From an uncultured Methylococcaceae bacterium (GTDB lineage Bacteria > Pseudomonadota > Gammaproteobacteria > Methylococcales > Methylococcaceae): a stretch of 62,021 bases of DNA. The stretch is taken from positions 1 through 62,021 of the forward strand of contig CAIZPP010000044.1 in NCBI GenBank assembly GCA_903934875.1. Direction: 5' to 3'. A program made the translations under genes and the position numbers. The stretch's first letter is position 1. Each line of letters begins with the position of its first letter. Under the pieces are notes generated by a model, which saw only the letters and a list, made by a program, of their open reading frames with translations, was not told the origin of the DNA and made no database searches. Of this stretch, positions 3,505-61,438 are shown in pieces.

Positions 3505-4197
3505 TTATGCCCGCGCACAAGCCCACACGTCAATCCGCTGGACCCCCGCTTCGCGCAAAGCTTTCGCCAGTTCATTGACAGTCGCGCCGGTGGTGACCAC
3601 ATCGTCGAGTATCGCCACATGGCTAAACGGCAATGGTTTGGTGACAGCGAATGCTTTTTTTATATTGCGCCGCCGTTGCTCGGCTGTCAGCTCGGTCTGT
3701 GCTTGGGTGGCAACCAGTCGTGTGCAAATTCGATAGTCCAGCGGCAGTTCAAGGCGGTGCGCAAGCGTGCGGGCGATTTCCAGCGATTGGTTGTAGCCGC
3801 GTTGCCGGTAGCGGCTAGGATGCAGCGGCACGGGGATGATTACGCCGGGCTTGTCGTCTAGATTAGCCAGTCTGTCGGCCAGCATGTCTCCTAGCAAGCG
3901 TGCGCAGGCATAACGGGAGTGGAATTTAAGCGCATGGATCAGGTGGCGCACCGGCTCTTCGTAACGGAACAGGGCCAGGCTGCTGTCGTATGCGGGGGGG
4001 TGTTTTTGGCAGTTGCCGCAGGGTATGCCAGTCGCAACAGGCAGCGGCAGGGCGCATCGCGGGCAGGCCGGAAAGTTGATGGGCAATGATTCGGCGCAGG
4101 CTGCGCACAGGTCGCGCCTTTCGGTTCCCGCATCCCCACACAATAGACAGGTGGGCGGGAACAGCCAATCCTGTATAATGTCTAGCCAGTTGTTCAT
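3505..4197 (-). CDS. comF: ComF-family phosphoribosyltransferase-like protein
   Basis: 230 residues. The N-terminal third has four CxxC pairs (CLLC, CAAC, CPRC, CGNC, roughly residues 18-82), probably a zinc-binding double finger. The remainder is a phosphoribosyltransferase fold, with IPVPLHPSRYRQRGYNQS in the middle and the PRPP-binding loop ILDDVVTTGAT near 193-203. ComF proteins are cytoplasmic and needed for DNA uptake in naturally competent bacteria; the biochemical step is not settled. It is transcribed divergently from bioB, a neighbourhood common in gammaproteobacteria, which supports the assignment. Confidence 0.93.
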   Translation of the reverse strand: MNNWLDIIQDWLFPPTCLLCGDAGTERRDLCAACAESLPINFPACPRCALPLPVATGIPCGNCQKHPPAYDSSLALFRYEEPVRHLIHALKFHSRYACARLLGDMLADRLANLDDKPGVIIPVPLHPSRYRQRGYNQSLEIARTLAHRLELPLDYRICTRLVATQAQTELTAEQRRRNIKKAFAVTKPLPFSHVAILDDVVTTGATVNELAKALREAGVQRIDVWACARA

Positions 4198-4296: not shown

Positions 4297-5310
4297 ATGC
4301 TAGCAGAATCAAGCCCCAATTTGTGCGGGAAAAAATATATTGAAGATGGCTTGCGCCATGACTGGAGTTTGCAGGAGGTGCTGTCCCTGTTTAAGCTGCC
4401 GTTCAGCGACTTGCTGTACCAAGCCCAAACGGTGCATCGATCACACTTCGACCCCAATGAAGTGCAGATTAGCAGTTTGCTGAGCATCAAGACTGGGGCG
4501 TGTTCGGAGGATTGCGGCTATTGCCCGCAAAGCGCCCATTACCAAACCGGTTTGGGACGCGAGGAACTGATCCCTTTGCAGGAAGTATTGCAGGCGGCCC
4601 GCCGGGCCAAGCAACAAGGCGCTGCACGCTTCTGCATGGGAGCGGCTTGGCGCAGTCCAGCCGACCACGATATCGAGCGGATAGTGGCGATGATAGAGGG
4701 GGTGCGCTCGTTGGGGATGGAAACCTGCGTGACGCTAGGCATGTTGACCGACAGCCAGACGCAGCGCTTGAAGCAGGCCGGTTTGGATTACTACAACCAC
4801 AATCTCGATACCTCACAAGAATATTATGCGGAGATTATCAGCACGCGCACCTATCAGGACCGCTTGGATACCTTGCAACGGGTGCGGGAGGCCGGGATCA
4901 ACGTCTGTTGCGGTGGCATCATCGGCATGGGGGAGAGCGCTCAAGACCGCGCCAATTTATTGATTGAACTGGCTAACCTGCCGCAGCACCCGGAAAGCGT
5001 GCCGATCAATCTGCTGGTTCGCGTGGAAGGCACACCCCTAGCCCAAACCGCCACGCTCGATCCTCTGGTGTTTGTCCGCACGATTGCCGTTGCCCGCATC
5101 CTGATGCCTAAATCGCGGGTGCGGCTGTCTGCCGGACGCACGGAAATGAGCGATGAAATGCAGGCTTTATGCTTTCTGGCCGGTGCCAATTCCATTTTTT
5201 ATGGCATAAAACTGTTGACGACGGATAATCCCTTGGCCGATAGTGACCGGCAGTTATTCCAGCGTTTGGGCCTGCGCATGGGGGGTAAAGAGGAAGCCCA
5301 TCACGCATGA
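4297..5310 (+). CDS. bioB: Biotin synthase
   Basis: 337 residues, a radical-SAM enzyme that inserts sulfur into dethiobiotin, the last step of biotin synthesis. The SAM-binding 4Fe-4S cysteines are C69, C73 and C76 ([13 protein letters not shown]). The conserved stretches [30 protein letters not shown] and FYGIKLLTT follow in the usual order. Relative to the E. coli enzyme the N-terminus is about 15 residues longer, so translation may start later than the ATG used here; no strong ribosome site decides it. The last bases ATGA overlap the bioF start. Confidence 0.97.
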
Positions 5311-6467
5311 GGCTCGACTGGCTTGCCGAGCGTTTGGCCGAGATTGAAGCGCTAGGGCTTTACCGCCGCCGCCGCGTCGTGGAAAGAATACACGGGGCGC
5401 AGGCGCTTGTGGAGGGTCGCCCCGTGCTGAATTTTTGTTCCAATGATTATTTGGGGCTTGCCGACCACCCCGATGTGGTGGCGGCGTTCCGGCGTGGAGC
5501 GGATATGTACGGTGTGGGCAGCGGGGCATCCCATTGGGTGACGGGGCATAGCCCGCCACATCACGCCCTAGAAGAAGAACTGGCGGATTTCACCGGGCGG
5601 GAACGGGCTTTGCTGTTTTCCACCGGCTATATGGCAAACCTGGGTGTCATCGCGGCATTGGCCGGGCGCGGCGACTGGGTGTTCGAGGATAGGTTGAACC
5701 ATGCGTCCTTGCTGGATGGGGGCTTGCTTTCTGGGGCCAGACTGAAACGCTATGCCCATGCCGACGCAGAAGCCCTGCGGAGCTTATTGGCCGAATGCCC
5801 GGCGGCAGTAAAGCTGATTGCCAGTGACGGGGTTTTCAGCATGGACGGCGATCTTGCTCCCTTGCCCGAACTGTCCAAGCTGGCAAGCCAGACGAACGCT
5901 AGTCTGATGATCGATGATGCCCACGGCTTGGGCGTGGTGGGGCCAACCGGGCGCGGCGTGGTGGAGCATTTCGGGCTGGGGGTGGCTGACGTTCCCGTGC
6001 TGGTGGGTACGCTGGGCAAGGCTTTCGGCACGTTTGGCGCTTTCGTTGCCGGTAGCGAAGACTTGATCGAATATCTCATCCAGACCTGCCGTCCCGCCAT
6101 TTACACTACGGCCTTGCCTCCGGCAGTGGCCGAGGCGACACGCGCCAGCCTGCGTTTGCTGATAGCGGAAACGTGGCGGCGGGACAAGCTACGCTTGTTG
6201 ATTAAACGCTTCCGCTTGGGCGCGGCACAGCTTAGGCTTAATCTATTGGCTTCAGACACACCGATCCAACCCATTTTGGTTGGCGATAACCATGCAGCCG
6301 TGCAAGCCAGCCAAAGCCTGCTTGCTGCGGGGTTTCTGGTTTCCGCCATCCGTCCGCCAACCGTGCCGGAGGGTACCGCCCGCTTGCGCATAACCCTTTC
6401 CGCCGCCCATCAGGAAAGCGATGTGGAGCGTTTGTTGGAGGCTTTGGCGGGGTTGAATTTTGATTAG
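5307..6467 (+). CDS. bioF: 8-amino-7-oxononanoate synthase
   Basis: 386 residues, a PLP enzyme that condenses pimeloyl-ACP with L-alanine to give KAPA. The PLP lysine is K238 in GTLGKAFG, preceded by the PLP-contacting DDAHGLGV (about 203-210). [10 protein letters not shown] near residue 42 is the family N-terminal signature. Length is typical. It starts inside the bioB stop (ATGA), so expression is coupled to bioB. Its stop codon lies only 3 bp before a MITE-like element, where the operon is interrupted: bioH, which often follows, is 6.6 kb away. Confidence 0.97.
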
Positions 6468-48180: not shown

Positions 48181-48266
48181 TTTGGGAGTTTATTTATCGG
48201 AAATCGCCTCACTGTCAGCCTGTAAATAAAAAACATTTCCTGGCGCAGCAGCAACAATTTTATTAT

Positions 48267-48404
48267 CGTTCCCACGGTCCCCGTGGGAATGCTGCCTTCG
48301 ACGCTCCGCGTTGAGTTTCTCTCCAATGGCCATACCTTTTCCCTCAAAAAAACAGTCGGACGCAGAGCGTCCGTGGAGGCATTCCCACGCGGAGCGTGAG
48401 AACG
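48267..48404. repeat. Inverted repeat CGTTCCCACG...CGTGAGAACG
   Basis: CGTTCCCACGGTCCCCGTGGG and GGACGCAGAGCGTCCGTGG, then GCATTCCCACGCGGAGCGTG. A dispersed repeat known in style from many gammaproteobacterial genomes. Confidence 0.55.
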
Positions 48405-48413
48405 ATGTAAATT

Positions 48414-49139: not shown

Positions 49140-49226
49140 GCCGAGATGGCGAAACTGGTAGACGCACCAGACTCAAAATCTGGCGGTGGTGACACCGTGC
49201 CGGTTCGATTCCGGCTCTCGGTACCA
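49140..49226 (+). tRNA. tRNA-Leu(CAA), attachment site of the downstream island
   Basis: 87 nt including the encoded CCA. Acceptor GCCGAGA pairs with TCTCGGT; the anticodon stem CCAGA/TCTGG closes the loop CTCAAAA, giving anticodon CAA. The variable arm (GGCGGTGGTGACACCGT) is long, as in class II tRNAs, and the T arm is CCGGTTCGATTCCGG. A broken integrase lies about 320 bp downstream, so this is the probable insertion site. Confidence 0.95.
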
Positions 49227-49322: not shown

Positions 49323-49430
49323 TCTAAGCCCCGCTTCAAGCAGATGCCAAACTAGCGACTTGGCAAAGTCGCGCAAGTCGATGGGCAAAACTACAAAATC
49401 CCTGCTCATTCGCTGATCTCCTGATAAGTT
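49323..49430 (-). pseudogene. Diverged 5' fragment of the 404-residue island gene
   Basis: Matches 52090-52195 over about 105 bp with scattered differences. It includes the ribosome site (reading TATCAGGAGATCAGCGA on the minus strand), the ATG at 49409 and about 27 codons (MSRDFVVLPIDLRDFAKSL...), plus the tail end of the DUF4365 frame. It then runs into tRNA-proximal sequence. A relic of a second, non-identical copy of the operon at 50-52.7 kb. Confidence 0.75.
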
Positions 49431-49438
49431 AAGGATTT

Positions 49439-49531
49439 TCCGTTCGCCCTGAGCTTGTCGAAGGGTGGAGGGAAAATCCCCATATCATTGATCGTTAGGC
49501 CGTTCATGGTTCGACAGGCTCACCACGAACG
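49439..49531. repeat. GTTCGCCCTGAGCTTGTCGAAGG palindrome (second copy)
   Basis: CGTTCGCCCTGAGCTTGTCG, then CCGTTCATGGTTCGACAGG and CACGAACGGC. Same as 3386-3452. Confidence 0.6.
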
Positions 49532-49549
49532 GCTAAACTTAATGGCAGT

Positions 49550-49806
49550 GAGCCATCGCCGGGAAACCATGCCCAGTGATTTGCGTTTTGGTGTCGTAAG
49601 CCATTCGCTTGAGTGCCGCGTTGACTATCGCCTCGGACATGGGTTTTTTTTAGATCGCGGCCCGGAAAGACATGTTGACCGTTGCCGGTTAGGGCGTGAA
49701 GTTCGCGTAAGATAGCCACGGCTTGCCGCGCCAGCGGGACAAGGTGTTCGGCATGAGTTTTGGCCCATGTGGGTTGGTACTTGGCGAACCATTCCCGCGC
49801 TATCAC
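49550..49806 (-). pseudogene. Fragment of a P4-type tyrosine integrase
   Basis: Reads AREWFAKYQPTWAKTHAEHL, then PLARQAVAILRELHALTGNG, VFPGRDLKK, and after a one-base slip PMSEAIVNAALKRMAYDTKT and ITGHGF. This is the catalytic-domain segment of tRNA-integrating P4-family integrases, ending at the HxxR region. The N-terminal DNA-binding part and the catalytic tyrosine are missing. The run of eight T residues at 49646-49653 marks the slip. Immobile unless another integrase acts on the ends. Confidence 0.75.
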
Positions 49807-50072: not shown

Positions 50073-50963
50073 TCATTTCAAATCGGCTGGGATGGTTCTT
50101 GACTCAACCCGATTAGCCGCCTCAAAAATGGCATACATGCTAACTTGGGACAAATCTGCTTTTTCGATGAGCGAACTCAGATACGCCTTTGAGCGGGAGG
50201 TAACGCCGTTTCTTTGGCATACCAGCCAAGCCACGGCTTCAGCCTCCATTTCGCATAAAGCATCATCCAAAGTAGAACGGTCAGGCCAGCGGCCTTTTGA
50301 TTCTCGTCCGACATGCCCACAGTAGATATGTCCCAACTCATGGGCCAAGGTTGCAAAACGGGTAGGGAGGTCGTGCTTCTTGTTCACTTTTACCTGAAAT
50401 GGAACTTTGGGATTAGCACTGTTAAATTCTGGTCGTATACCTAACCCTAAAGCCGTTCCCGCCAATAATACGCCGTATTGGTCTGTCTCGTTCACTGCAA
50501 CGCCATATTTCTCAGCCGCTTTTATAGTATTGTCATAGGTCTTCTTGTCGATTTTCCCGGTTGCGAATAACGGTGAATCCGCCTCACCAACGATGTCTTG
50601 ACCTTCCGTATCGCCAAATTCAAAAACGAAACGGACAGGGCCAAAAGGTTGCAGAATGACAATAGGAATGGCCCCCGGCATGACACGCCGCCCTATCGAC
50701 TGCCATTTCTTCCGGCTTGCCACTGCCGAAGCGCCAGGGCGTTGAACCCGCACCAGCATGGCGTTATAAACCGATAGGTTGCTAAACTTTTCAGCGAAAT
50801 TTAGGAATTCGTCAAAAGCCGATGCTCCCCGTTCGATAAACGCTTGTTGAAACAACCCGTCAATGGCCGATGCGCAATCCTCAAAATGTGCCAGTCGCAA
50901 TTCACCTTGCCCATGATGGTGTTGTTCTGGTTCGTCTGTGAACAATAACCCCTGTGCATTCAT
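50073..50963 (-). CDS. ArdC/ImmA-like zinc metallopeptidase
   Basis: 296 residues. The N-terminal half (FSNLSVYNAMLV, then ASRKKWQSIGRRVMPGAIPI) resembles the ArdC ssDNA-binding/antirestriction region. The C-terminal half is a zincin with TLAHELGHIYCGH (HExxH plus a later H) and the third ligand candidate in EMEAEAVAWLV, as in ImmA/IrrE peptidases. It overlaps the gene before it by 4 bp (ATGA), so it is the last gene of a coupled three-gene operon. ArdC proteins counter host restriction during DNA entry; ImmA-type proteins cut repressors. Which applies is open. Confidence 0.78.
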   Translation of the reverse strand: MNAQGLLFTDEPEQHHHGQGELRLAHFEDCASAIDGLFQQAFIERGASAFDEFLNFAEKFSNLSVYNAMLVRVQRPGASAVASRKKWQSIGRRVMPGAIPIVILQPFGPVRFVFEFGDTEGQDIVGEADSPLFATGKIDKKTYDNTIKAAEKYGVAVNETDQYGVLLAGTALGLGIRPEFNSANPKVPFQVKVNKKHDLPTRFATLAHELGHIYCGHVGRESKGRWPDRSTLDDALCEMEAEAVAWLVCQRNGVTSRSKAYLSSLIEKADLSQVSMYAIFEAANRVESRTIPADLK

Positions 50964-52174
50964 GATTCGCCAAAAATCTCGTTTTGGGTGACTCTCTCAT
51001 TAGTGGAGTCTGGATGTTCGGACCGTTCAACCGGTTTGCCCGCCTCAATCGGGAGAATCAATTCAAAGCGTGAAATTTCGGACATTTGCCGTGGCTGTCG
51101 CCCTTGCTGAAGTTTGCCGGCCACTTGCACATAAGCCCCTTCTGTCATGTGCGCTTTGTCGGCTTTTGCGTAGTCATCCGCCGAGAGTGCGACTCTGGCG
51201 CGGATGCTCTCCCCTTCTTGAAGTAGCAAGGCAAGAATCACCTCGCCAGACCGCCGCCCATCCTCGCCCATTTCTCCGCAAAGGCGTTCAACGGTTCCGA
51301 TAAAGCTCTCTTTCATGTGACCGTCAAAGAAACGCAATTCCCGGCGAACTTCTTCTATGCGCCCGAAATAGTCGCGCTGAAATCGCAAAGGCAGCTTGTC
51401 CGCCTCTGCAACCGGCTCCACAACAGACCAGTCAAAAGCCACATCCAGAGAGTTATCCAAGGCTTCATCATAGAATTGGGTCAACGCTTCGCAAAGGTTC
51501 GAGGAAAGCAAAGGGTTCGATTCTTGTTTGAGCGATTCCACAAGACGATCCAAGGTATCCGCTTCAATCGCCCTGATAAGCTGCTCCATGCCACGCCGTA
51601 GCGCAAGCGTCACACGCCGGACAAATGGCAGACAGCTATCGTCCAAGGCAAGCATTCCTTGCACATCCAGCGCATGGATGGGGCAAGACACGCGAAGCAC
51701 AAAGCTCCCCGCCTCGGTCTGGCCAAAGCGTGATTTTTCGATCAGTTGTTGCGCCTCGGTCAAAGTCAGGCGCGGATGGTGGTAACGTGGGCGCATCACC
51801 GTACAAGCCGCCGCTTTCAGCAATTGCTGCACCCCGGCAAGCAGCGAACCCGCAAAGCCAAGCGGCAATGAACGGTCCCCAATATCGGAGAAAACCCGGA
51901 AGCGCAAGGTGTCATCACGGACAGCCTGGGCGCGGACTCGCAATGCATCGGGTCGTTCAAGCAACATGTCTCCCAGCTTTTCCAATACACGAGTCGTTGA
52001 TTCCAAATAATCGGGGGCATCCACGTTCATTGGAAAAACCAACTGTCGGCGCGGGAAATTAGGGTTTTGCAAGACATAAAGCCTGTCAGTAAGCCCCGCT
52101 TCAAGCAAATGCCAGCCTAGGGATTTGGCAAAGTCGCGCAGGTCGATGGGCAAAACTACAGTATCCCGGCTCAT
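50960..52174 (-). CDS. Unknown 404-residue island protein
   Basis: No family recognised. Begins MSRDTVVLPIDLRDFAKSLGWHLLEAG and reads as a soluble, mixed alpha/beta protein without membrane helices, P-loop or nuclease motif. The last 70 residues (GEVILALLLQEGESIRARVALS, AYVQVAGKLQQGRQPR, ISRFELILP) look like a compact beta barrel, possibly nucleic-acid binding; that is inference. It overlaps both neighbours by 4 bp (DUF4365 upstream, metallopeptidase downstream). A diverged copy of its 5' end lies beside the tRNA at 49323-49430, so the gene has had relatives at this site before. Confidence 0.75.
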   Translation of the reverse strand: MSRDTVVLPIDLRDFAKSLGWHLLEAGLTDRLYVLQNPNFPRRQLVFPMNVDAPDYLESTTRVLEKLGDMLLERPDALRVRAQAVRDDTLRFRVFSDIGDRSLPLGFAGSLLAGVQQLLKAAACTVMRPRYHHPRLTLTEAQQLIEKSRFGQTEAGSFVLRVSCPIHALDVQGMLALDDSCLPFVRRVTLALRRGMEQLIRAIEADTLDRLVESLKQESNPLLSSNLCEALTQFYDEALDNSLDVAFDWSVVEPVAEADKLPLRFQRDYFGRIEEVRRELRFFDGHMKESFIGTVERLCGEMGEDGRRSGEVILALLLQEGESIRARVALSADDYAKADKAHMTEGAYVQVAGKLQQGRQPRQMSEISRFELILPIEAGKPVERSEHPDSTNERVTQNEIFGES

Positions 52175-52719
52175 TCGCTGATCTCCTGATAGGTGGGCAC
52201 TTTGTTATGGGATAGTTGCGCCATCAACGCAAGCAAGCCTTCTGGGTCGAATCGTTGAGATTTCGGCAGATAAATTATCTGTCCAGAGCTATTAGAGCTA
52301 GATTTTGCTCCCCGCAGACTGACCCAATAGGCGCATTTACGCAATATCAAGGCTTCATCATTCAAACCAAGCCAATCTGCCTCATTCTCTGGAAGAAACA
52401 AAACCACTAGAATTCGATGTGTCGAAAGCGTTTCTTTACGCAGATCATCATAGCGAGAAATGCCATTGAGAAAATAAGGCCAATACTCCCCCTTGGGGAC
52501 TGGCGTTTTCACCGTGGCTTTCAACTGAACCTTGATGTCGATTTCCGTAAGATAACCGCCATTGGGAAACGGTCCCCAGCCGGTTAGCTCGGCATCAATT
52601 CCGGCATTGTCATCGTGCCTAGAACCTAGCTTGCAGCCGACTCCCGCTTTCGATGCCACAGCATGGAGGTAGGCGTAGCTTAGTTCAGCTTCAATGTTAT
52701 TGGTGGTCAGTGGTTTCAC
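52171..52719 (-). CDS. DUF4365 protein, PD-(D/E)XK nuclease-like
   Basis: 182 residues. The DUF4365 signature is clear: IEAELSYAYLHAVASKAGVG, RHDDNAGIDAELTGWG, EIDIKVQLKAT. The pattern GIDAE ... D-I-x-x-Q-L-K is that of a PD-(D/E)XK nuclease core (acid, acid, Q, K). First gene of the three-gene operon. The upstream gap to res is 55 bp. DUF4365 proteins are often found in defence or mobile contexts, usually without an assigned partner. Confidence 0.8.
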   Translation of the reverse strand: MKPLTTNNIEAELSYAYLHAVASKAGVGCKLGSRHDDNAGIDAELTGWGPFPNGGYLTEIDIKVQLKATVKTPVPKGEYWPYFLNGISRYDDLRKETLSTHRILVVLFLPENEADWLGLNDEALILRKCAYWVSLRGAKSSSNSSGQIIYLPKSQRFDPEGLLALMAQLSHNKVPTYQEISE

Positions 52720-52774: not shown

Positions 52775-55342
52775 TCACACACCACTAAGCTTCAATATCG
52801 CCACATCCAACTCCGATTTGAACCCATACAAATCGCCTTCTCGGAGTTTCTGGAAGAATGCATTGAAGTTTTTCGGACTGAGCATGTTGAACTGGTAGCG
52901 AGTGGCAAGCCCTTTGTTTTCCAGCCATTCATTCAGCCGCTTGAAGTGTGCCAGTGCATATTCGTGCTTTTTGATGTTCTCCGCCGCAGGTTCGCTGATC
53001 TCTCCATCGTCCTTGATTTCCAACACAAAAATCCACTCGGTTTGTTTGATAAAGAAATCCGGGCTGAATTCGCCACGTTTCGGGTGTTCGCCCTTCTTCC
53101 AAGCATATTCCAAGGAATAAAAACCCATGTGCGGGTTTTTTAACCAAGCGTCCAAGTTTAAGGCATTTTCTCGCTTGGTCAGTTCACGCATGAATTTGCG
53201 TTCCGGTGTCCTGTCGGCAATGGCAAGATAAACCGGCGTTTTGAAGTCAGCCGGGTTTTCCACCACTACACAGGCACTTGCGAAATCTCCATCGGGGTCT
53301 TTGGCTTCTTGGAAAAAGTCTTGTTGCTCGTCTGGCAAATATTGCCCGCATTCGGGGATATGAAAAACGCTTTTGGAATCCCGGCGCAATTCCGCCGCGC
53401 TACAATTCTCCTGAGGCTTATCTTTCGTATCCAGGGTTTTCAAGGCTTGAGGGGCAAGCGTGTAGATTACCCGCTTTGCCGATTTACGGCGCAAGGGTCC
53501 AAGTGCTTGCAGAATTTTCTGCCGGTTCTCGTCGGTGACACGCCCACTATGGATATTGGCCTGTTTTAGCGATTCAACAATAATTTCCTCACATCGCTCT
53601 AATGTGAATTGCCGGGTATATTGGGTGCGGTCTTCTGGATTTTTAGAGGAGGATGATTCCATGTCGATGTCAGTAAGCCGTCGAAAGATTTCAGCAGCCA
53701 CCGTATCAACTGGGTATGTTTTGCGCTTAATGGATGTCTTGAATTCCACCTGTTCGCCGGAAACGGCCCGCTCAAAGCTCACCGTCACCGCTTCTTCCTC
53801 AATTTGGGTCGGCAAATCCACATAGCCTTTTTCAAGCAGATGGTATTCCCCGCTCTTTTGGCTTTCGCTCACTTCTGGAATGCGCGTGTAATCCAAATGG
53901 TGCAGCGTAAAATGGAAGTCCGAAATGGGATTGACAGCGGAAGTCAGCCTTTGCTCGATTTCCAAAATCTCATTCACCAGCCCCTTGATACGACCAGACC
54001 AAGCATCGTGATTGAACACCGTCACCACGGGTTCATCTCCTTGCCAATTGTCCGGGCGGCGTAGGCCACGCCCAAGCACTTGGGCAATCAGCAATTTGCT
54101 ATTGAAAGCCCGTTCTTCGTGCGGAACAATCTGGAACACATTTTTCACGTCCCACCCCTCGGAAAGCATCGCCACCGAGACGATCCACTCAACCTTGCTT
54201 TCCGGCCTATCGACATGCTTGAGGGTGGCAATATTAGGCTGATGGTCTTTGTGTGAACTCACCGCTAAGACCTTCTCCCGCACTTGTTCGGGGTTCGGTG
54301 TTTTGTCCCATTCCTGTAGCCATTCCCGAAGTTCTTCCACGACTTGCCTACAGGTTTTGATGTCGTGGGTGACGATAATCGTCAAAGGCCGGATACCCCG
54401 GCTTTTCAATTCCTTGCGGTATTTTTCATGGCGGTTCCAAATTAGTTGCCATTTTTCTTCCGACGAATGGGTAACGGGCATTTCGGCAACATAGTCCACT
54501 TTCTTGACAAAGCGTTGCTCAATGGCCTCGCGCAAGGAGTACCTAAACACCACGTCGGCAAAGTAATCATTGCCCACATAGCAAGTGCCGGACACTCCGG
54601 CTACATAACGAAAGCCATAGTCTGGGTTAAGCAGGAACTCCTTCCAACGCTTGGCATTCTTGCCGGTTTCGTTGGCGACATGGTGCGCCTCGTCGTTAAG
54701 CACTAGCGTCCTGCCGCCCTTGCCCTGTAGGCTGTCGCGGATGGACGATTTGACCGTTTCCAAAATGGCATGGTAGTTTTCCACGCAAACCGCCCCGTCT
54801 ACAATGCTCTCGGAAGCGTTGATTATTCTCGGCGTTCCGATCTTTGCCTCTAACGGCAAGGCATCGCGGAGGTCGGCATTCGTCGCCAACTCCCTGAACT
54901 TGGCCAGCAAACCCGCCTCAATCGTCTTGGAGGGACAAAGCACCAGCACCCTATCCACCACACCCTCTGCCAACATCACCGCCGCCAAGCCATAGAGGAT
55001 GAAGCTCTTGCCAGTGCCGGTCGCCAAATCCAGCGAGCAGGCCAGTTGGTCGGGTAGCTGTAATGTTCGCGCCATGTGTTCAAAGCGTCCATGCAAGGAT
55101 TGCAATTCTTCATTGGCGTTGAAATTTTCCAAAGCCAGCGCACGAGTATTAGGGAACTGTTGCCCTAGCCAATAGCGCAAGCAAACCCGAATCGCTTCCT
55201 TCTGATATTCCCGATGGCCGCACAATGCATCAAGAAACCCCTCGTAGCGGTTTTCATTCCATCGCTTGGGGTCGATGTGCGGCGACACTTTAAGAACCAA
55301 ATCCTCATTGCGGTAGGTGCGCCGGTCAGTGTTGCGGTTCAC
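52775..55342 (-). CDS. res: Type III restriction endonuclease subunit
   Basis: 855 residues from GTG 55342 (VNRNTDRRTYRNEDLVLKV), chosen because it overlaps the mod stop as GTGA; the frame is open 61 codons further but inside mod. Helicase superfamily 2: Walker A ATGTGKS, DEAH-type LNDEAHHVAN, motif VI region LLIAQVLGRGLRRP. The C-terminal endonuclease motif PDF...FVLEIKDDGEIS provides PD-(D/E)XK residues. Works with Mod to cut DNA with two inversely oriented sites. Downstream is the DUF4365 operon, same strand. Confidence 0.92.
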   Translation of the reverse strand: MNRNTDRRTYRNEDLVLKVSPHIDPKRWNENRYEGFLDALCGHREYQKEAIRVCLRYWLGQQFPNTRALALENFNANEELQSLHGRFEHMARTLQLPDQLACSLDLATGTGKSFILYGLAAVMLAEGVVDRVLVLCPSKTIEAGLLAKFRELATNADLRDALPLEAKIGTPRIINASESIVDGAVCVENYHAILETVKSSIRDSLQGKGGRTLVLNDEAHHVANETGKNAKRWKEFLLNPDYGFRYVAGVSGTCYVGNDYFADVVFRYSLREAIEQRFVKKVDYVAEMPVTHSSEEKWQLIWNRHEKYRKELKSRGIRPLTIIVTHDIKTCRQVVEELREWLQEWDKTPNPEQVREKVLAVSSHKDHQPNIATLKHVDRPESKVEWIVSVAMLSEGWDVKNVFQIVPHEERAFNSKLLIAQVLGRGLRRPDNWQGDEPVVTVFNHDAWSGRIKGLVNEILEIEQRLTSAVNPISDFHFTLHHLDYTRIPEVSESQKSGEYHLLEKGYVDLPTQIEEEAVTVSFERAVSGEQVEFKTSIKRKTYPVDTVAAEIFRRLTDIDMESSSSKNPEDRTQYTRQFTLERCEEIIVESLKQANIHSGRVTDENRQKILQALGPLRRKSAKRVIYTLAPQALKTLDTKDKPQENCSAAELRRDSKSVFHIPECGQYLPDEQQDFFQEAKDPDGDFASACVVVENPADFKTPVYLAIADRTPERKFMRELTKRENALNLDAWLKNPHMGFYSLEYAWKKGEHPKRGEFSPDFFIKQTEWIFVLEIKDDGEISEPAAENIKKHEYALAHFKRLNEWLENKGLATRYQFNMLSPKNFNAFFQKLREGDLYGFKSELDVAILKLSGV

Positions 55343-57459
55343 AGAGTTTCCTCGCTCTTTTTGCTTTTTTTCCGTTTTGCATAAACCGCTTTTTTCTCTT
55401 TCAGATTCGGTTCTAGGCCAAACTTTTCCGCCGGTATCAACTCCCGTGCCTCGTTGCCGTAAATGTCCACGAAAATCGCCATCATCTTCTGCCCCAAAAG
55501 TTCGGCGGGGAAACTCAGTTCCCAATCGGCATTCGCCAAATCATGGGCATAAAACACCTCGTCCAAGTCAAACACGCCGGTTTCGCTGTCGGCATCCGCA
55601 CCGCCATAGCAATAATCCAGCATTACCATAGACAGCGTTTCCCGGTTCTCTTTTTTGCGCAATGTCTCGCGCACCACGGCATCACTATAAAAACTCTCAA
55701 TGCGGATGTAGCCTTCCGCGAACAAGTCTTTCTGGCGGGTTCCTATCTTGTAATCCAGTGTAGGGCGTTTGATGAAGTCGAACCCCACCGCTTCCACGGT
55801 GTCATTCACTGCCATCTCGTCGGCGGGTTGCTTGAGTGCCATGAATTCGCGCTGGTGCAATTCATGGATAATGGAATAGGGGATGCGCAAGGCGTAGTAA
55901 CGCACATCACCCACATCAATATAATCCTGCTGAAAATCAAAGGACATTGCCGGTGCGGCAATGAACACCCGCAAACCGACACGGGAACCTGCCGCCTCAT
56001 GGATGGAATGAAGGGTTTGCTCGTCCACGCGAACGCCTTCCCGCTCCCTATGGTTGAACACCATCACACTGCCACCTTTTAAAGTGCCGTCGAAGCGTAT
56101 GCCGCCTATGCTGTGCGGTTCGTCCCTACAGCCAAACAGTTCCAATGCAAAAAAGCGCCAAGACTCCCAAGGCAATTCATTGAGTTTGGAAAAGTCGTAC
56201 AAACCGGCGTTGTAGAGTGAAAAGGCTTTAGGTTTCAAAGCCGCACCCTTGTTGCCTATCTTGGCTTTAAGATTGAGCATCCGTTTCTGGATGGTGTAGA
56301 TAGCCAACTTGCCGCAATCTATGCCTATCCAGCGGCGGTTAAGTTTCTCGGCTACGGCTAAAGTCGTACCCGAACCGGCGAAGGCATCAAGTACAATATC
56401 ACCGTTATTTGAGGATGTGGCAATTATCCTTTGTAATAGCGACTCCGACTTTTGCGTTGGATAATCCATTCTTTCCTCTGCTTGCGAATTCACCGGAAAT
56501 ATGTCACTCCACATATCTGATGGCGGCAAACCAAGGAGATCATCAACATATCTTTTGATTCTTGCTACACCATTCTTGGTATAATAAAGTTTATCTTCTT
56601 GCTCATAACGTTGCATTGTTTCAATTGGGCATCTCCATGTTTTAAAAATGCCCTTCCATTCATACGGATAGCCACCACCTCTAAGGCCAGTACCGATCAA
56701 GTTATCATCGGAAAACCTTTGCCCTTTTCGCCTTCCTGTTGTTTCAATATGTTTGTATCTTTCGGCAATATATTCTTCAGTATATGGTACAAACTGAGGA
56801 TTAAATATAAACGCACCAGATTTTGAATAAAGAAGTAGTGCATCATGGACATTCGCAAATGTTGTTGAATCGCTATGTGCAGATGTGCGCTTCCAAATAA
56901 TTTCATTTATAAACCGGCTTTCTCCAAATATTTCATCTAACACGATCTTCATGTAATGAATCTTCTTAACGTCGAGATGAAAGTAGATACATCCATTATC
57001 AGCGAGAAGTTCTCTTAATAAGACCAAACGACGACGCATAAACTCTACAAATTGCGCTCCTGCAATCTTATCTTGATATGCTTTTTGATCTTGGCTCCCT
57101 TGAAAGTCCTGCTTGGTTGCAAACGGCGGATCAATATAAACCAGCCGCACCCCCGGCGTACCGTCCGCATTGACCAGCTTCCCCGCCTTTTTCAACTCCA
57201 ACAGGCTTTTCATGACTTGGAGGTTGTCACCGAATATAAGCCGATTGTGCCATTCCACGCCATTGCGGCCAAAAGTCCGCACTTTCTGCAACGGCACGGC
57301 CAAGGTGTTGGCGATAATGTCCTCTTCGCGCTCCTTGCCGTGGTACACCAATTCATATTCCCGTTTTTCAGGCGGAAACAGAATCCGCGCCCATTCCGGT
57401 GAAATCTCCTCCCCCGCCTGTAGCAGTTGAATCAGTTGTTGGCTTTGTTCAGGTGTCAT
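55339..57459 (-). CDS. mod: Type III-like DNA adenine methyltransferase (Mod)
   Basis: 706 residues. Amino-methyltransferase of the beta arrangement: the catalytic IDPPFATKQDF (DPPF variant of DPPY) comes before the SAM motif AFAGSGTTLAVAEKL. It methylates adenine in the site recognised by Mod-Res. The target-recognition part between the two motifs (about residues 160-320, DNA about 56500-56980) is clearly more AT-rich than the rest, as if exchanged. The stop codon overlaps the res start. Confidence 0.92.
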   Translation of the reverse strand: MTPEQSQQLIQLLQAGEEISPEWARILFPPEKREYELVYHGKEREEDIIANTLAVPLQKVRTFGRNGVEWHNRLIFGDNLQVMKSLLELKKAGKLVNADGTPGVRLVYIDPPFATKQDFQGSQDQKAYQDKIAGAQFVEFMRRRLVLLRELLADNGCIYFHLDVKKIHYMKIVLDEIFGESRFINEIIWKRTSAHSDSTTFANVHDALLLYSKSGAFIFNPQFVPYTEEYIAERYKHIETTGRRKGQRFSDDNLIGTGLRGGGYPYEWKGIFKTWRCPIETMQRYEQEDKLYYTKNGVARIKRYVDDLLGLPPSDMWSDIFPVNSQAEERMDYPTQKSESLLQRIIATSSNNGDIVLDAFAGSGTTLAVAEKLNRRWIGIDCGKLAIYTIQKRMLNLKAKIGNKGAALKPKAFSLYNAGLYDFSKLNELPWESWRFFALELFGCRDEPHSIGGIRFDGTLKGGSVMVFNHREREGVRVDEQTLHSIHEAAGSRVGLRVFIAAPAMSFDFQQDYIDVGDVRYYALRIPYSIIHELHQREFMALKQPADEMAVNDTVEAVGFDFIKRPTLDYKIGTRQKDLFAEGYIRIESFYSDAVVRETLRKKENRETLSMVMLDYCYGGADADSETGVFDLDEVFYAHDLANADWELSFPAELLGQKMMAIFVDIYGNEARELIPAEKFGLEPNLKEKKAVYAKRKKSKKSEETL

Positions 57460-57929: not shown

Positions 57930-60119
57930 TCATTCCTCAATGTCTTTGGGAAGAATCCAGTAAAGCGATATTTTTTTCCGATTGCCGATGTCGGTTTTCT
58001 TGCTCCGCTTGCCTTTTTCCTTGTCGTGGCTATGAATCCACCCGGCGGAATCCAGTGCCGACAACACACGCGGCAAATCATGCCCCTTGGTGGCCTCCTT
58101 GAGTCCATCCGATGTGAACAGATACACCCGGCCTATGTCTTCCAAATCAATCCACCAGCCCGCCCGGTTGAGGATGAAGCTTTCCTTTTGTTCATCATTA
58201 TTGCCTGATTTGCAGGTGAATCGTCCGTCGCCGTTTCTGCTGATAAAATCCGCCACTGCCTCAAGAATTTGACGGTCCTCGGTAGAACCGCCGCCGTGCA
58301 TCTCATACCATAGCCGGTAACATTCCACCGCCGCTCGGATGGCTTCATTAGCAGGCCAGGGTAATATCCCAAACTCTTGCGCCAATGTACCGGCAAGGGC
58401 GTATAGGGCAAACCGCGAAGCCACCCGCTTGGCTTGGCTGTCTTCAGCGGCAAATTCGGGTTTTGCCTTGATATTCTCCAACATCGCACAATAATCGGTT
58501 TCAGTCTTCAGGATGGCATCAATAAAGGCTGGTCCAGCATGGCCGTAATGCTTCGCCGTGGCCGCCTTAAGATGGTCGGACAAAGCCCGCCCCTCGGTGA
58601 ACCCGTGCAACACATCAAACACGCCAAACGCCCGCGCCGTTGGAATATTGAGCAGCCGCACCAATTGACCAGCCTTCGGTTGCTTGCCGCCCTCGGCCAT
58701 TTGCGCCGACAAGGTGCGCTCCCCGGTGGACAACAACGTAAGCCGCCAACGAGCGACGTTCCGGGCAGAGCCTATGCGGTTAGCCCGCGTTTTGCCGGTT
58801 CCATTGCCTAGCGCATAGATAATGCTGCCGATTTCCTTGGGGTCGGCCTCGTTGATTTCATCCAAGCAGAGGCAGGTGTCTGTCAACGCCGCCGCCGTGC
58901 CTTCCAAGCCGTTGGCAGTCCCCCGCCAAGTGCGCCGGTAGGTTTCCCCGCCCCACACAGAACTTCCAACGAAAAGCGCAGTGGATTTGCCGATGGAACT
59001 GTCGCCCACCCAATGCACCCCGCCTGAATCCTGCTGTATTTTGGCAAGTAACGGCCCTGCCAACGACACACAGACCGACAAAGCCAAGATCGGATTGCCC
59101 ACGCAATACGCCGCCACGTCCTTTTGCCATGCCGCAAAATCCCCAACCGTCTCCGCCATGCCTTCTTGGTGCATGGTTTCAGATTGGTAGATCACATCTT
59201 CTGAGCCGATGACCTTTTCAGGCAATACAAAGGCTTTCCCGTCGCGTGTCCAACCAGTGCGCAATGCCGCCGTCACCCGCCGCTGAGGGGTTTTCCATTG
59301 CAGATAATCCGCCAGCCGCGTCCGCTCCCGGTGGTCGATATGCACCCCCGCCGCCAATAGTTCCCCGCGCAATTCTTCACAGGAACCGCGCAGCATTTCC
59401 ATTGGCATGGCCCAAGTTCGCCTAGTCCCGAAAGTGTCTATAAACACCAGCAATCGCCCAAAATATCGCTTGTCATCTGTGCAAGTGACCGCAGCAACGC
59501 TCAACGGGGAACACAGCCACAGATTAACCGGCTCCGGGTCTTTGTCCTTGCCACTGGTTTTGTGTCCATGATACCAAACCCCCGGTGGCCCGAACTGGCT
59601 CCAATCCTCCCTAACCACATAGGAAGGCCGCGCCGGTTCGTTAGTATCGTCTGGCAGTGGCAATCCGCTCCCTTTCTGTCGCCGCCGGGAGGATAAATTA
59701 ACCACATTGGCATTATTCCCCGAGTCAATCCTCTCTGACTTTTCGGGATTGGTTCCCGTCGTTCCCTCTGCCGGATTGCCAAGGGAACCGCTAGAAGCCG
59801 CGCCAGCCGTGGCGGTTCCCTTGGTTCCCCTAGTTCCTTTGGAATTGTCGTTGCTTTGGCGTGTTGCCGGTGTTGGCTTGGTTTTCCGTTTTGGCTTCTC
59901 TGCCTGGTCAACCATGGTTTTGATGTCCAACATTTCAACAGGACTGGTTCCCTCGGTTCCTCCTGTCGGACTATCAAGGGAACCGCTGGAAGTTGTTTCA
60001 ACCGTGGGGGTTCCCTTGATTCCCCTAGCTCCCTTGGAATCATCGACATTTATCTTAATTTTGTCCTTCGCAGTGGTTTTGCGCCGATTTTGTTTCTCAT
60101 TCTCGGGCTTATTGGTCAT
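57930..60119 (-). CDS. DUF927 helicase-like replication protein
   Basis: 729 residues. The first 160 residues are low complexity and contain two copies of a segment of about 38 residues (SKGARGIKGTPTVETTSSGS and SKGTRGTKGTATAGAASSGS). The body is DUF927: Walker A GDSSIGKST, then a Walker-B-like LCLDEINEAD, TGKTRAN and the C-terminal lobe. DUF927 proteins are replicative helicase-like ATPases of phages, satellites and plasmids. It overlaps the primase gene by 11 bp, forming an alpA-primase-helicase operon. It probably unwinds the origin that follows it. Confidence 0.88.
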   Translation of the reverse strand: MTNKPENEKQNRRKTTAKDKIKINVDDSKGARGIKGTPTVETTSSGSLDSPTGGTEGTSPVEMLDIKTMVDQAEKPKRKTKPTPATRQSNDNSKGTRGTKGTATAGAASSGSLGNPAEGTTGTNPEKSERIDSGNNANVVNLSSRRRQKGSGLPLPDDTNEPARPSYVVREDWSQFGPPGVWYHGHKTSGKDKDPEPVNLWLCSPLSVAAVTCTDDKRYFGRLLVFIDTFGTRRTWAMPMEMLRGSCEELRGELLAAGVHIDHRERTRLADYLQWKTPQRRVTAALRTGWTRDGKAFVLPEKVIGSEDVIYQSETMHQEGMAETVGDFAAWQKDVAAYCVGNPILALSVCVSLAGPLLAKIQQDSGGVHWVGDSSIGKSTALFVGSSVWGGETYRRTWRGTANGLEGTAAALTDTCLCLDEINEADPKEIGSIIYALGNGTGKTRANRIGSARNVARWRLTLLSTGERTLSAQMAEGGKQPKAGQLVRLLNIPTARAFGVFDVLHGFTEGRALSDHLKAATAKHYGHAGPAFIDAILKTETDYCAMLENIKAKPEFAAEDSQAKRVASRFALYALAGTLAQEFGILPWPANEAIRAAVECYRLWYEMHGGGSTEDRQILEAVADFISRNGDGRFTCKSGNNDEQKESFILNRAGWWIDLEDIGRVYLFTSDGLKEATKGHDLPRVLSALDSAGWIHSHDKEKGKRSKKTDIGNRKKISLYWILPKDIEE

Positions 60120-61164
60120 GGCTACCTCCTTTTAATAGCTTTGCGAAGTCATTGAAATCGCCGCCTTGTATCGGCGGCAAGGTGACAAACCCATCCACCA
60201 AGGCCGCTGCTTCCTCAGCCTTCTCGATTCCTGCCCGCCGCCCCCGTTGGTCGGGTAAGTCGTTGTCACCGCATAGCACAATTTTTGCCTCTGTGAACGC
60301 ACGTCGCACCAGCAAGGCAACAGCGGGCAAGTTTCCTGCCGAAAATGCGACAAAACAGCGGTATTCGGTGGCCGCAAACACGGAGGCACAGGTGGAGTAA
60401 CCCTCGCCTATGCACAGGGTAGGTGTGCGCTGTCCAAGCCAATGGAATAACCCGCTTACCCGCGCACCCGGCAAAAAATCACGGTCCCGCTCCAAGGCTG
60501 GGCAAACTCCGGGGAAGATGAATTGCAAATTCCAGATAACGCCGTTTTGGTCGCGCATCGGGATGACCAACACTCCCCCATGAATGCGGACGGTTGCAAA
60601 CGTGCCATCGTCTTGGTACACCCGCCGTTCCCAAGTGGGCAGGTATCGAATGCCATGCACTCCTACGCCTTTTCGGTGCAAATAGGGAAAATCCGGCTTG
60701 GCCGGTACAGACCGCCGCCACAATTCCCGCGCCCATTGCGCCCGTTTCAGGTGTCTGGCTTGGGTTTCCTGTTCGCGTTGCGCCTGATTTTCCCTGAATT
60801 GCCGCCGCCGCTTTTCACGCTCTATTGGATCAATCGACTGTTGGCCCTTGGGGAACCACGTCCATTGATGACCGCGCTTCAAATCGGTGAAATGCACATT
60901 CTGGGGAGTATCAATATGGACAAAGACACGAATCGGTTTATGGCCTTTCCTATCCTCACTGGTTCCAACATAATTAACAGGCCCATAGGTCTTTACATCA
61001 TCCCGAATCTCCAGCCCGAATTGGTTAAAATAGGCTTCCTTGGCTTGCTTCCAAAGTTCCCAAGGTTCGATGTAAGGGGTATGTCGGTTTTCATTTTGAT
61101 TACCAGCCCCGCAAAGCCCGCCAGCCATGTAGGGCTTTTCATGTGAATGGAGTCTCAGATTCAT
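60109..61164 (-). CDS. Toprim primase of a P4-like island
   Basis: 351 residues from ATG 61164; ATG 61257 would add 31 residues and overlap alpA by 47 bp. N-terminal substrate region, basic linker (REKRRRQFRENQAQREQE) and a Toprim domain with the glutamate in LCIGEGYSTCASV and the DxD in IVLCGDNDLPD. No zinc finger is evident at the N-terminus. It makes primers for the element's replication with the DUF927 helicase next to it. Confidence 0.85.
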   Translation of the reverse strand: MNLRLHSHEKPYMAGGLCGAGNQNENRHTPYIEPWELWKQAKEAYFNQFGLEIRDDVKTYGPVNYVGTSEDRKGHKPIRVFVHIDTPQNVHFTDLKRGHQWTWFPKGQQSIDPIEREKRRRQFRENQAQREQETQARHLKRAQWARELWRRSVPAKPDFPYLHRKGVGVHGIRYLPTWERRVYQDDGTFATVRIHGGVLVIPMRDQNGVIWNLQFIFPGVCPALERDRDFLPGARVSGLFHWLGQRTPTLCIGEGYSTCASVFAATEYRCFVAFSAGNLPAVALLVRRAFTEAKIVLCGDNDLPDQRGRRAGIEKAEEAAALVDGFVTLPPIQGGDFNDFAKLLKGGSHDQ

Positions 61165-61210
61165 AATCTTATCTGTCCATTTTGAATGCGGCTTATGAGT
61201 TCCACAGTCA

Positions 61211-61438
61211 TCAGGCGATACCTCCCTGCTTAGTAATGAGTTCCCTAATGTCTTCAACTCGCCATGCGGTTGTTCTTGGCCCTAATTTGACAGGAGACGG
61301 ATAACGCCCATTTTTCACCCCCTCAAACCAACTGGTACGACCAACGGGGATGATGGCGGGGACGGGAGGGTTGGCTTTCTTGTCGCCCAAAATTTGCTTG
61401 AGGCGAAGAAAGCCGGTTTCTGGTAGTGGGTTGTTCAT
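61211..61438 (-). CDS. AlpA-family DNA-binding regulator
   Basis: 75 residues with the AlpA/MerR-like winged helix: GFLRLKQILGD, then IPVGRTSWFEGVKNGRYPSPVKLGPRTTAWRVEDI, the typical W-x-x-G...P...K-L...R-T-x-W run. In P4-like prophages AlpA activates excision or int and regulates the replication genes. First of the alpA-primase-helicase operon. Confidence 0.92.
   Translation of the reverse strand: MNNPLPETGFLRLKQILGDKKANPPVPAIIPVGRTSWFEGVKNGRYPSPVKLGPRTTAWRVEDIRELITKQGGIA

Follow-up and report, generated by a model that had tools for sequence, protein, structure and literature searches.

Organization of the locus

The window studied here, by which we mean the whole stretch of DNA analyzed, comprises 62,021 nucleotides from an uncultured Methylococcaceae bacterium (GenBank assembly GCA_903934875.1, contig CAIZPP010000044.1, positions 1 to 62,021, forward strand). 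It carries a tightly packed run of five genes on the same strand, in the order Mod, Res, A, B, and C. We focus on the last three, which a preliminary description had presented as a candidate undescribed three-gene system. We find that A and B together match an already named phage defense candidate, PDC-M02, that C is an ArdC-like metallopeptidase distributed independently of that pair, and that restriction-modification (R-M) genes lie near part of the loci of each family. The genes of the run are:

55339..57459, minus strand: Mod, DNA methylase (N6_N4_Mtase) of a type III-like R-M system; Pfam PF01555, E 6.5e-45
52775..55342, minus strand: Res, ResIII helicase/nuclease subunit; Pfam PF04851, E 8e-12
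52171..52719, minus strand: A, 182 aa, GTG start; DUF4365 PD-(D/E)XK-type nuclease, PDC-M02A
50960..52174, minus strand: B, 404 aa; PDC-M02B
50073..50963, minus strand: C, 296 aa; ArdC-like metallopeptidase with HExxH and E238/E242

Recomputed coordinates place the open reading frames of A, B, and C where the preliminary description had put them, with both of its 4-bp overlaps (A/B at 52171–52174, B/C at 50960–50963). Res and A are separated by 55 bp. The Mod stop is overlapped by 4 bp (GTGA) by a GTG at 55342, which we infer to be the Res start; the list of open reading frames has an upstream TTG at 55525. By Pfam, Mod and Res show the arrangement that marks a type III R-M system, an N6/N4 methylase gene adjoining a ResIII-domain gene. 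We label them only type III-like because the best PADLOC model for Mod is MTase_II (5.6e-85), followed by MTase_III (1.4e-52), and because Res matches REase_III only partially (E 3.1e-10).

Genes A and B as PDC-M02

A and B adjoin on the same strand, and the best PADLOC model of each covers nearly its full length: PDC-M02A for A (E 2.4e-89, residues 1–180 of 182) and PDC-M02B for B (E 6.5e-167, residues 1–373 of 404). The pair is the PADLOC-DB 2.0.0 phage defense candidate PDC-M02, which is already named and has candidate status only. Because A and B match this candidate, the word "undescribed" was too strong for two of the three genes. The source of the PDC names is given as a preprint, Payne et al. 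2024, in the citing article (PMC12988326), and a search under the term "PDC-M02" found no paper in the literature collection searched.

The nuclease domain that had been proposed for A is confirmed by a match to DUF4365 at residues 12–167 (Pfam E 2.7e-17, 63.6 bits against a gathering score of 24.3). A retains the DUF4365 active-site residues, with D37, D42, Q65, and K67 identical in all 19 alignment rows. In TmuRE, a DUF4365-APAZ nuclease, Q62 and K64 are reported as proposed active-site residues, and the activated complex is reported to degrade DNA without specificity (PMC10810196). We equate Q65 and K67 of A with these residues by motif rather than by aligning the two proteins. Membership of A in the SPARDA family was considered and rejected, since a protein of 182 aa with DUF4365 at residues 12–167 leaves no room for APAZ.

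B had been described as unknown. This holds for Pfam and NCBIfam, in which it matches no family at E up to 1, but not for PADLOC, which names it. An AlphaFold2 model built from 42 sequences has a mean predicted local distance difference test score (pLDDT) of 85.2. The predicted layout consists of an N-terminal alpha/beta part (residues ~1–280), an OB fold (~283–378), and a non-conserved tail of ~28 residues, which is unaligned in the 16 relatives compared. The top structural match of the OB fold is SilF, a metal-binding protein (Z 9.8, root-mean-square deviation (rmsd) 2.5, 75 aligned residues). Many single-stranded DNA (ssDNA)-binding proteins also match, at Z 7.8 and below, which is the background level of the tool, and Foldseek matches to the PDB have E values of 0.0017 or higher.

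The N-terminal 282 residues of B, modeled alone, reached a pLDDT of 89.4 and gave no structural match above Z 6.0. For the middle part (~86–280), matches scored Z 5.0 or less, with no Argonaute among the best 50 matches listed. A HicA-like N-terminus was considered from a VIA-align match to 6g26_F (Z 6.0, rmsd 2.8, 60 aligned residues) and rejected, as values below Z 8 are background; a Pfam search of 10 B N-termini for HicA at E up to 10 also gave no match. Among viral models, the top match is to a protein of Leptospira phage LE1 (E 2.5e-20).

We collected relatives of B from 301 genomes of the order (14 with B), plasmids (14 records), the genome_contigs set (47 loci), and viral contigs (1). 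The resulting set contains 57 loci besides the window (L036, L046–L050, L067–L069, L070–L117). Three of the 14 plasmid records are included (L067–L069), and two phage records with B and locus L192 are left out. Nine order-level loci (L037–L045) were dropped as lying on the same contigs as L070, L073, L104–L106, and L110–L113. Near-duplicates from Caballeronia and allies remain in the set (L068, L096, L097, L100, L101, L107, L114, L115).

A profile match to A adjoins B in 53 of these 57 loci, some of them fragments (e.g., L075, L102, L113). Profile search found no A beside B in L046, L047, L081, where tblastn found a remnant, or L103. Exactly the same 4-bp A/B overlap is present in 32 of 48 relatives (L070–L117, comprising the 47 genome_contigs loci and one viral contig), and the overlap exceeds chance. 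A wider sample had B in 2 of 339 genomes, counting the genome of the window itself. In viruses, B occurs in two phage records, at 26% identity, and on one IMG/VR contig.

Gene C as an ArdC-like metallopeptidase

The evidence favors the preliminary reading of C as an ArdC-like zinc peptidase. The HExxH motif (H208, E209, H212) and E238/E242 are invariant in 11 of 11 aligned sequences, including that of the window, and the family profile reaches the ArdC structures 6i89/6sna at E 0.0023–0.0025 over positions 183–283. Alignments by tblastn to plasmid proteins annotated as ArdC span at most residues 31 to 294, with 24–30% identity. C falls below the cut-off of Pfam MPTase-PolyVal (15.2 bits, cut-off 27.5) and scores 19.3 bits against Peptidase_M78 (ImmA/IrrE), for which the gathering score is 22 and the C relative in L058 reaches 24.3. 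Window C has no Pfam match to ArdC-N. ArdC is the nearest characterized relative of C found.

PADLOC model RT_III-A matches all 11 aligned C proteins (best E 3.8e-9). In window C the match is confined to residues 185–264, corresponding to model positions 485–564 of 597, and we do not accept C as a member of RT_III-A; by sequence similarity, the model seems to hold a related peptidase domain. Other PADLOC matches among the 11 proteins were to capP in two, and to two further models in one each. No dedicated C model in PADLOC-DB 2.0.0 emerged from scanning these 11 proteins. Relatives of C occur in 19 plasmid records, of which 6 are typed conjugative and 7 mobilizable, and none was found in phage records. 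ArdC-N and zincin domains are reported to occur often in the polyvalent proteins that mobile elements encode, ArdC-N chiefly in those of conjugative elements (PMC5512222). A literature search combining at least four of the terms peptidase, ImmA, R-M, defense island, and ArdC found no paper.

Independent distribution of A-B and C

The preliminary description held that free separation of the three genes in other genomes would count against it, and C proved to separate from the other two. No C match was present in any of the 57 other B loci, searched up to 8 kb per side or less at contig ends, including the 53 with an A match. Conversely, an intact A-B pair occurs in none of the 26 other C loci, with a fragment of A in one (L053), and 25 of the 26 have no A or B match, a count obtained partly by single-sequence searches, which may miss distant relatives. 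The set of 26 consists of L051–L062, of which L061 and L062 are weak relatives, L064–L066, which are three of the 19 plasmid records, L118–L123, and L165–L169. L063 has no profile match to C; G097, G251, and G995 (L170) are left out, as are the viral C loci L124–L157 (32% identity or less). Among the 301 genomes of the order, 14 contain B and 13 contain C, and only two contain both, that of the window and G130. In G130 they lie on different contigs, and B and C are adjacent only in the window. Wider samples contained C in 7 of 369 and 2 of 398 genomes, counting the window's own.

The overlap between B and C has a single counterpart, the decayed relic L053 in a genome of the same genus (G091). 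There, Mod is followed by the beginning of A, joined to the final codons of B; these lead into the beginning of C through an identical ATGA overlap, and the frame of C is broken further on. As the order is kept, contiguity of A, B, and C must have extended to a second genome of the genus at least, where the arrangement has decayed.

It had been argued from the overlaps that the three genes must be made together. For C, the overlap does not identify a partner. A 4-bp overlap between C and the gene upstream of it also occurs in L066 and L060, and in L052 C overlaps an unrelated gene for a 527-residue protein. Because C overlaps unrelated upstream genes elsewhere, we regard the B/C overlap as a habit of C rather than the mark of a partner.

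Neighborhoods of C show turnover of the genes in front of it. The cargo in this position differs among L051, L052, and L053. In L052, a Res gene other than that of the window is followed by a 75-bp scar (3776–3850) that matches the end of window Res, and the gene for the 527-residue protein (4374–5957), which has no Pfam match, lies downstream of the scar. L052 thus shows cargo turnover in front of C.

Restriction genes near both modules

We searched the neighborhoods of C and B with 23 seeds of the R-M or helicase-methylase kind, which detect only R-M types resembling themselves. Some seeds are labeled by record annotation (N6d, DEAD64) or by likeness to the window's Res (Res123) rather than by Pfam. 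Controls were 80 positions in 20 stretches (400 kb) from five genomes of one order. A seed match lay within 3 kb of C in 14 of the 26 other loci, compared with 1 of 80 control positions (p = 1e-9; this and the following p values are rough because control positions overlap and represent one order only, and the loci are partly near-duplicates). When a locus's own seeds were dropped, 10 of 26 remained (p = 2e-6). For B, a seed match lay within 3 kb in 8 of the 48 loci L070–L117 against the same 1 of 80 controls (p = 0.0017), still 8 without own seeds; among the nine remaining B loci, L036, L046, and L047 also had one nearby.

The R-M partners of C, identified by Pfam, are of several kinds. They include type III-like systems (L051, L058), the type I subunit HsdR (L055, L165), N6_Mtase proteins (L056, L060, L123), and sets of SNF2 helicase, DUF1156, and DUF499 genes (L120, L166), which we take to be Hma-type sets. 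In L120 (916–11342), C lies inside such a set, and in L166 (1992–8756) directly behind one. In L055 (6582–7313), a gene for a YgjP-like metallopeptidase stands between hsdR and C, so that two distinct zinc peptidases follow one type I gene. This linkage of C to R-M genes is the least described part of the locus and the most interesting one left over.

The A-B pair can be found within R-M operons. In L092, hsdM and hsdS are followed by A, B, and then hsdR, with small genes between; L090, L095, and L102 resemble it, the last two having more intervening genes. L036 repeats the arrangement of the window, with A-B immediately after Mod-Res, but has no C. L046 (6018–7973) contains a distant B relative without DUF4365 between hsdS and hsdR, and reading its sequence we noted a PIN-toxin-like open reading frame upstream of that relative. 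In L047, a similar B adjoins hsd genes.

Surroundings of the run: a probable integrated element

The run is flanked by AlpA, primase, and DUF927 genes on the Mod side and by a tRNA-Leu gene and a weak integrase remnant on the C side:

61211..61438, minus strand: AlpA-type regulator of the element; Pfam Phage_AlpA, E 1.1e-4, barely over the cut-off
60109..61257, minus strand: Toprim_3 primase-like protein of the element; Pfam E 2.5e-8
57930..60119, minus strand: DUF927 protein of the integrated element; Pfam E 2.1e-85
49504..49806, minus strand: weak integrase remnant; Phage_int_M E 0.06, under the Pfam cut-off
49325..49429, minus strand: 105-bp relic of the junction between the end of A and the start of B, 90% identical to 52090–52194, lying between tRNA-Leu and the integrase remnant
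49140..49226, plus strand: tRNA-Leu (caa), its 3' end pointing toward the C side

These genes suggest an element integrated at tRNA-Leu with defense cargo, the tRNA gene being its likely integration site. The 105-bp relic probably remains from a previous A-B copy at this site. The setting first proposed, defense cargo between an integrase scar and a type III pair, is thus broadly borne out, with Mod-Res upstream and tRNA-Leu downstream, although the integrase is seen only as the Phage_int_M remnant. We looked within the window for attR, a second copy of the tRNA 3' region, and found none; two 13-base matches look like chance. Besides the window, 4 of the 26 other loci (L051, which has only a fragment of C, L052, L057, and L123) have a tRNA gene within 1 kb of the 3' end of C, the two 3' ends facing; the 400 kb of control sequence contain two tRNA genes. 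At ~48256–48410 the window has short repeated DNA that recurs at two places in L051 (~4710–4770 and 5348–5394), from a genome of the same genus, and is a dispersed repeat.

Interpretation and alternatives

With moderate confidence, we interpret the locus as the defense cargo of an element at tRNA-Leu, with two independent accessory modules, the PDC-M02 pair A-B and the peptidase C, standing behind a type III-like Mod-Res operon. B would bind nucleic acid through its OB fold and serve as sensor and partner of nuclease A. Infection may provide the trigger either by exposing phage DNA that is single-stranded or cut by restriction, or through a phage inhibitor that disables the R-M complex, as happens with PrrC. 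On that signal, A would cut DNA, providing a second line that backs up the R-M system. C, as an ArdC-like ssDNA-binding/zinc-peptidase protein, would join R-M loci independently. It would more probably moderate restriction, by protection or alleviation during establishment of the element or of new R-M genes, than release A, and we favor this role with low confidence. The B/C overlap would then reflect how A-B came into an operon that ended in C.

Several observations weigh against this interpretation. No seed-detected R-M gene lies within 3 kb in 46 of the 57 B loci, some of which adjoin housekeeping genes (suf or 6-phosphogluconate dehydrogenase) instead, so A-B need not depend on R-M. Similarly, 12 of the 26 C loci have no seed match within 3 kb, and some of these adjoin transposase, glycosyltransferase, or PEP-utilizing genes; L121 and L122 begin near a contig end. 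OB folds are common, and that of B is closest to metal-binding SilF, with its ssDNA-binding matches at background. Finally, the contiguity of A, B, and C preserved in L053, in a second genome, also fits a cooperating trio.

It is possible, though unlikely, that C is an ArdC-like anti-restriction or establishment protein unrelated to defense, put at the end of the element by the attachment (att) site. The ArdC-like profile of C, its relatives on conjugative and mobilizable plasmids, and the tRNA 3' ends that face it in five loci including the window are consistent with this explanation. ArdC itself is reported to bind ssDNA and to defeat HsdRMS in recipients, with its peptidase activity dispensable (PMC7213743). 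However, the sequence match to ArdC is weak, and a pure transfer protein would not need the R-M seed matches, often joined to C, that occur within 3 kb in 14 of 26 loci.

We consider it doubtful that A-B is a guard of the PrrC kind, which the R-M complex would keep silent until a phage inhibitor disabled that complex and so released the guard. PrrC is reported to be genetically linked to a type I enzyme that silences it, and to be activated by a phage anti-restriction factor (PMC2610378). Such a role agrees with where A-B is found: hsdS and hsdR flank it in type I operons, and in the window and L036 it comes immediately after Mod-Res. Because most B loci have no seed-detected R-M gene nearby, a guard would have to work with a partner in trans or respond to some other trigger.

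Equally doubtful is chance juxtaposition, in which repeated turnover at the tRNA site brought the genes together and neither A-B nor C works with Mod-Res. Such turnover would be expected to leave traces like the A-B junction relic next to the tRNA and the different cargo in front of C in L051–L053, but R-M genes are enriched beside both modules over control positions. A dedicated three-gene system, with C as a peptidase switch that cleaves B or the B-A complex and frees nuclease A, is highly improbable and was rejected on gene neighborhoods: the 4-bp overlaps, the intact trio in the window, its remains in order in L053, and the catalytic residues of C kept in 11 of 11 sequences fit it, but no C match lies in any of the 57 other B loci within the DNA searched (up to 8 kb per side), no intact A-B was seen in the 26 other C loci, and C overlaps unrelated genes elsewhere. 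No result supports the proposal that a nuclease is held in check and released by the peptidase.

More speculatively, C may be a portable restriction-control peptidase carried on type I, type III, and helicase-methylase-ATPase operons, which would dampen or clear restriction complexes or shield DNA while these operons enter new hosts; we regard this broad role as unlikely. If true, mobile R-M systems in general would have C as an accessory gene, one for which no dedicated PADLOC-DB 2.0.0 model was found, and here C would also be coupled to a PDC-M02 module.

The supposed new trio is thus replaced by two testable points. First, PDC-M02 gains a concrete anatomy, a DUF4365 nuclease with a predicted OB-fold partner. 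Since the pair lies within some type I and type III operons, the idea that an R-M system controls its trigger can be put to the test. Second, restriction operons themselves are found joined to members of an ArdC-like family, named after an anti-restriction protein of plasmids, which raises the question of whether R-M systems bring their own restriction-relief factor when they move.

Comparison with known systems

PrrC is located within its hsd locus, and A-B is likewise a nuclease module that is embedded in an R-M operon or follows one, including between hsdS and hsdR. In contrast, PrrC is an anticodon nuclease, whereas A has a DUF4365 DNase-type domain. Silencing is a reported trait of PrrC; for A-B, what was observed is the embedding in R-M operons. 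With SPARDA (TmuRE-Ago), A shares the DUF4365 nuclease domain and the Q-x-K active-site residues. It differs in having no room for APAZ, and Mod, Res, B, and C have no Argonaute match in Pfam.

C is like ArdC of R388 and pSa and other ArdC-N/MPTase proteins in its size and C-terminal HExxH peptidase, aligns partly to plasmid proteins annotated as ArdC, and likewise has relatives on conjugative and mobilizable plasmids. It differs in its low identity to these proteins (24–30%), its scores under the MPTase-PolyVal and M78 cut-offs, and its position behind an R-M operon beside a tRNA gene. PDC-M02 agrees with the window in that both of its genes match and are adjacent on the same strand; to this pair the window adds C and the tail of B.

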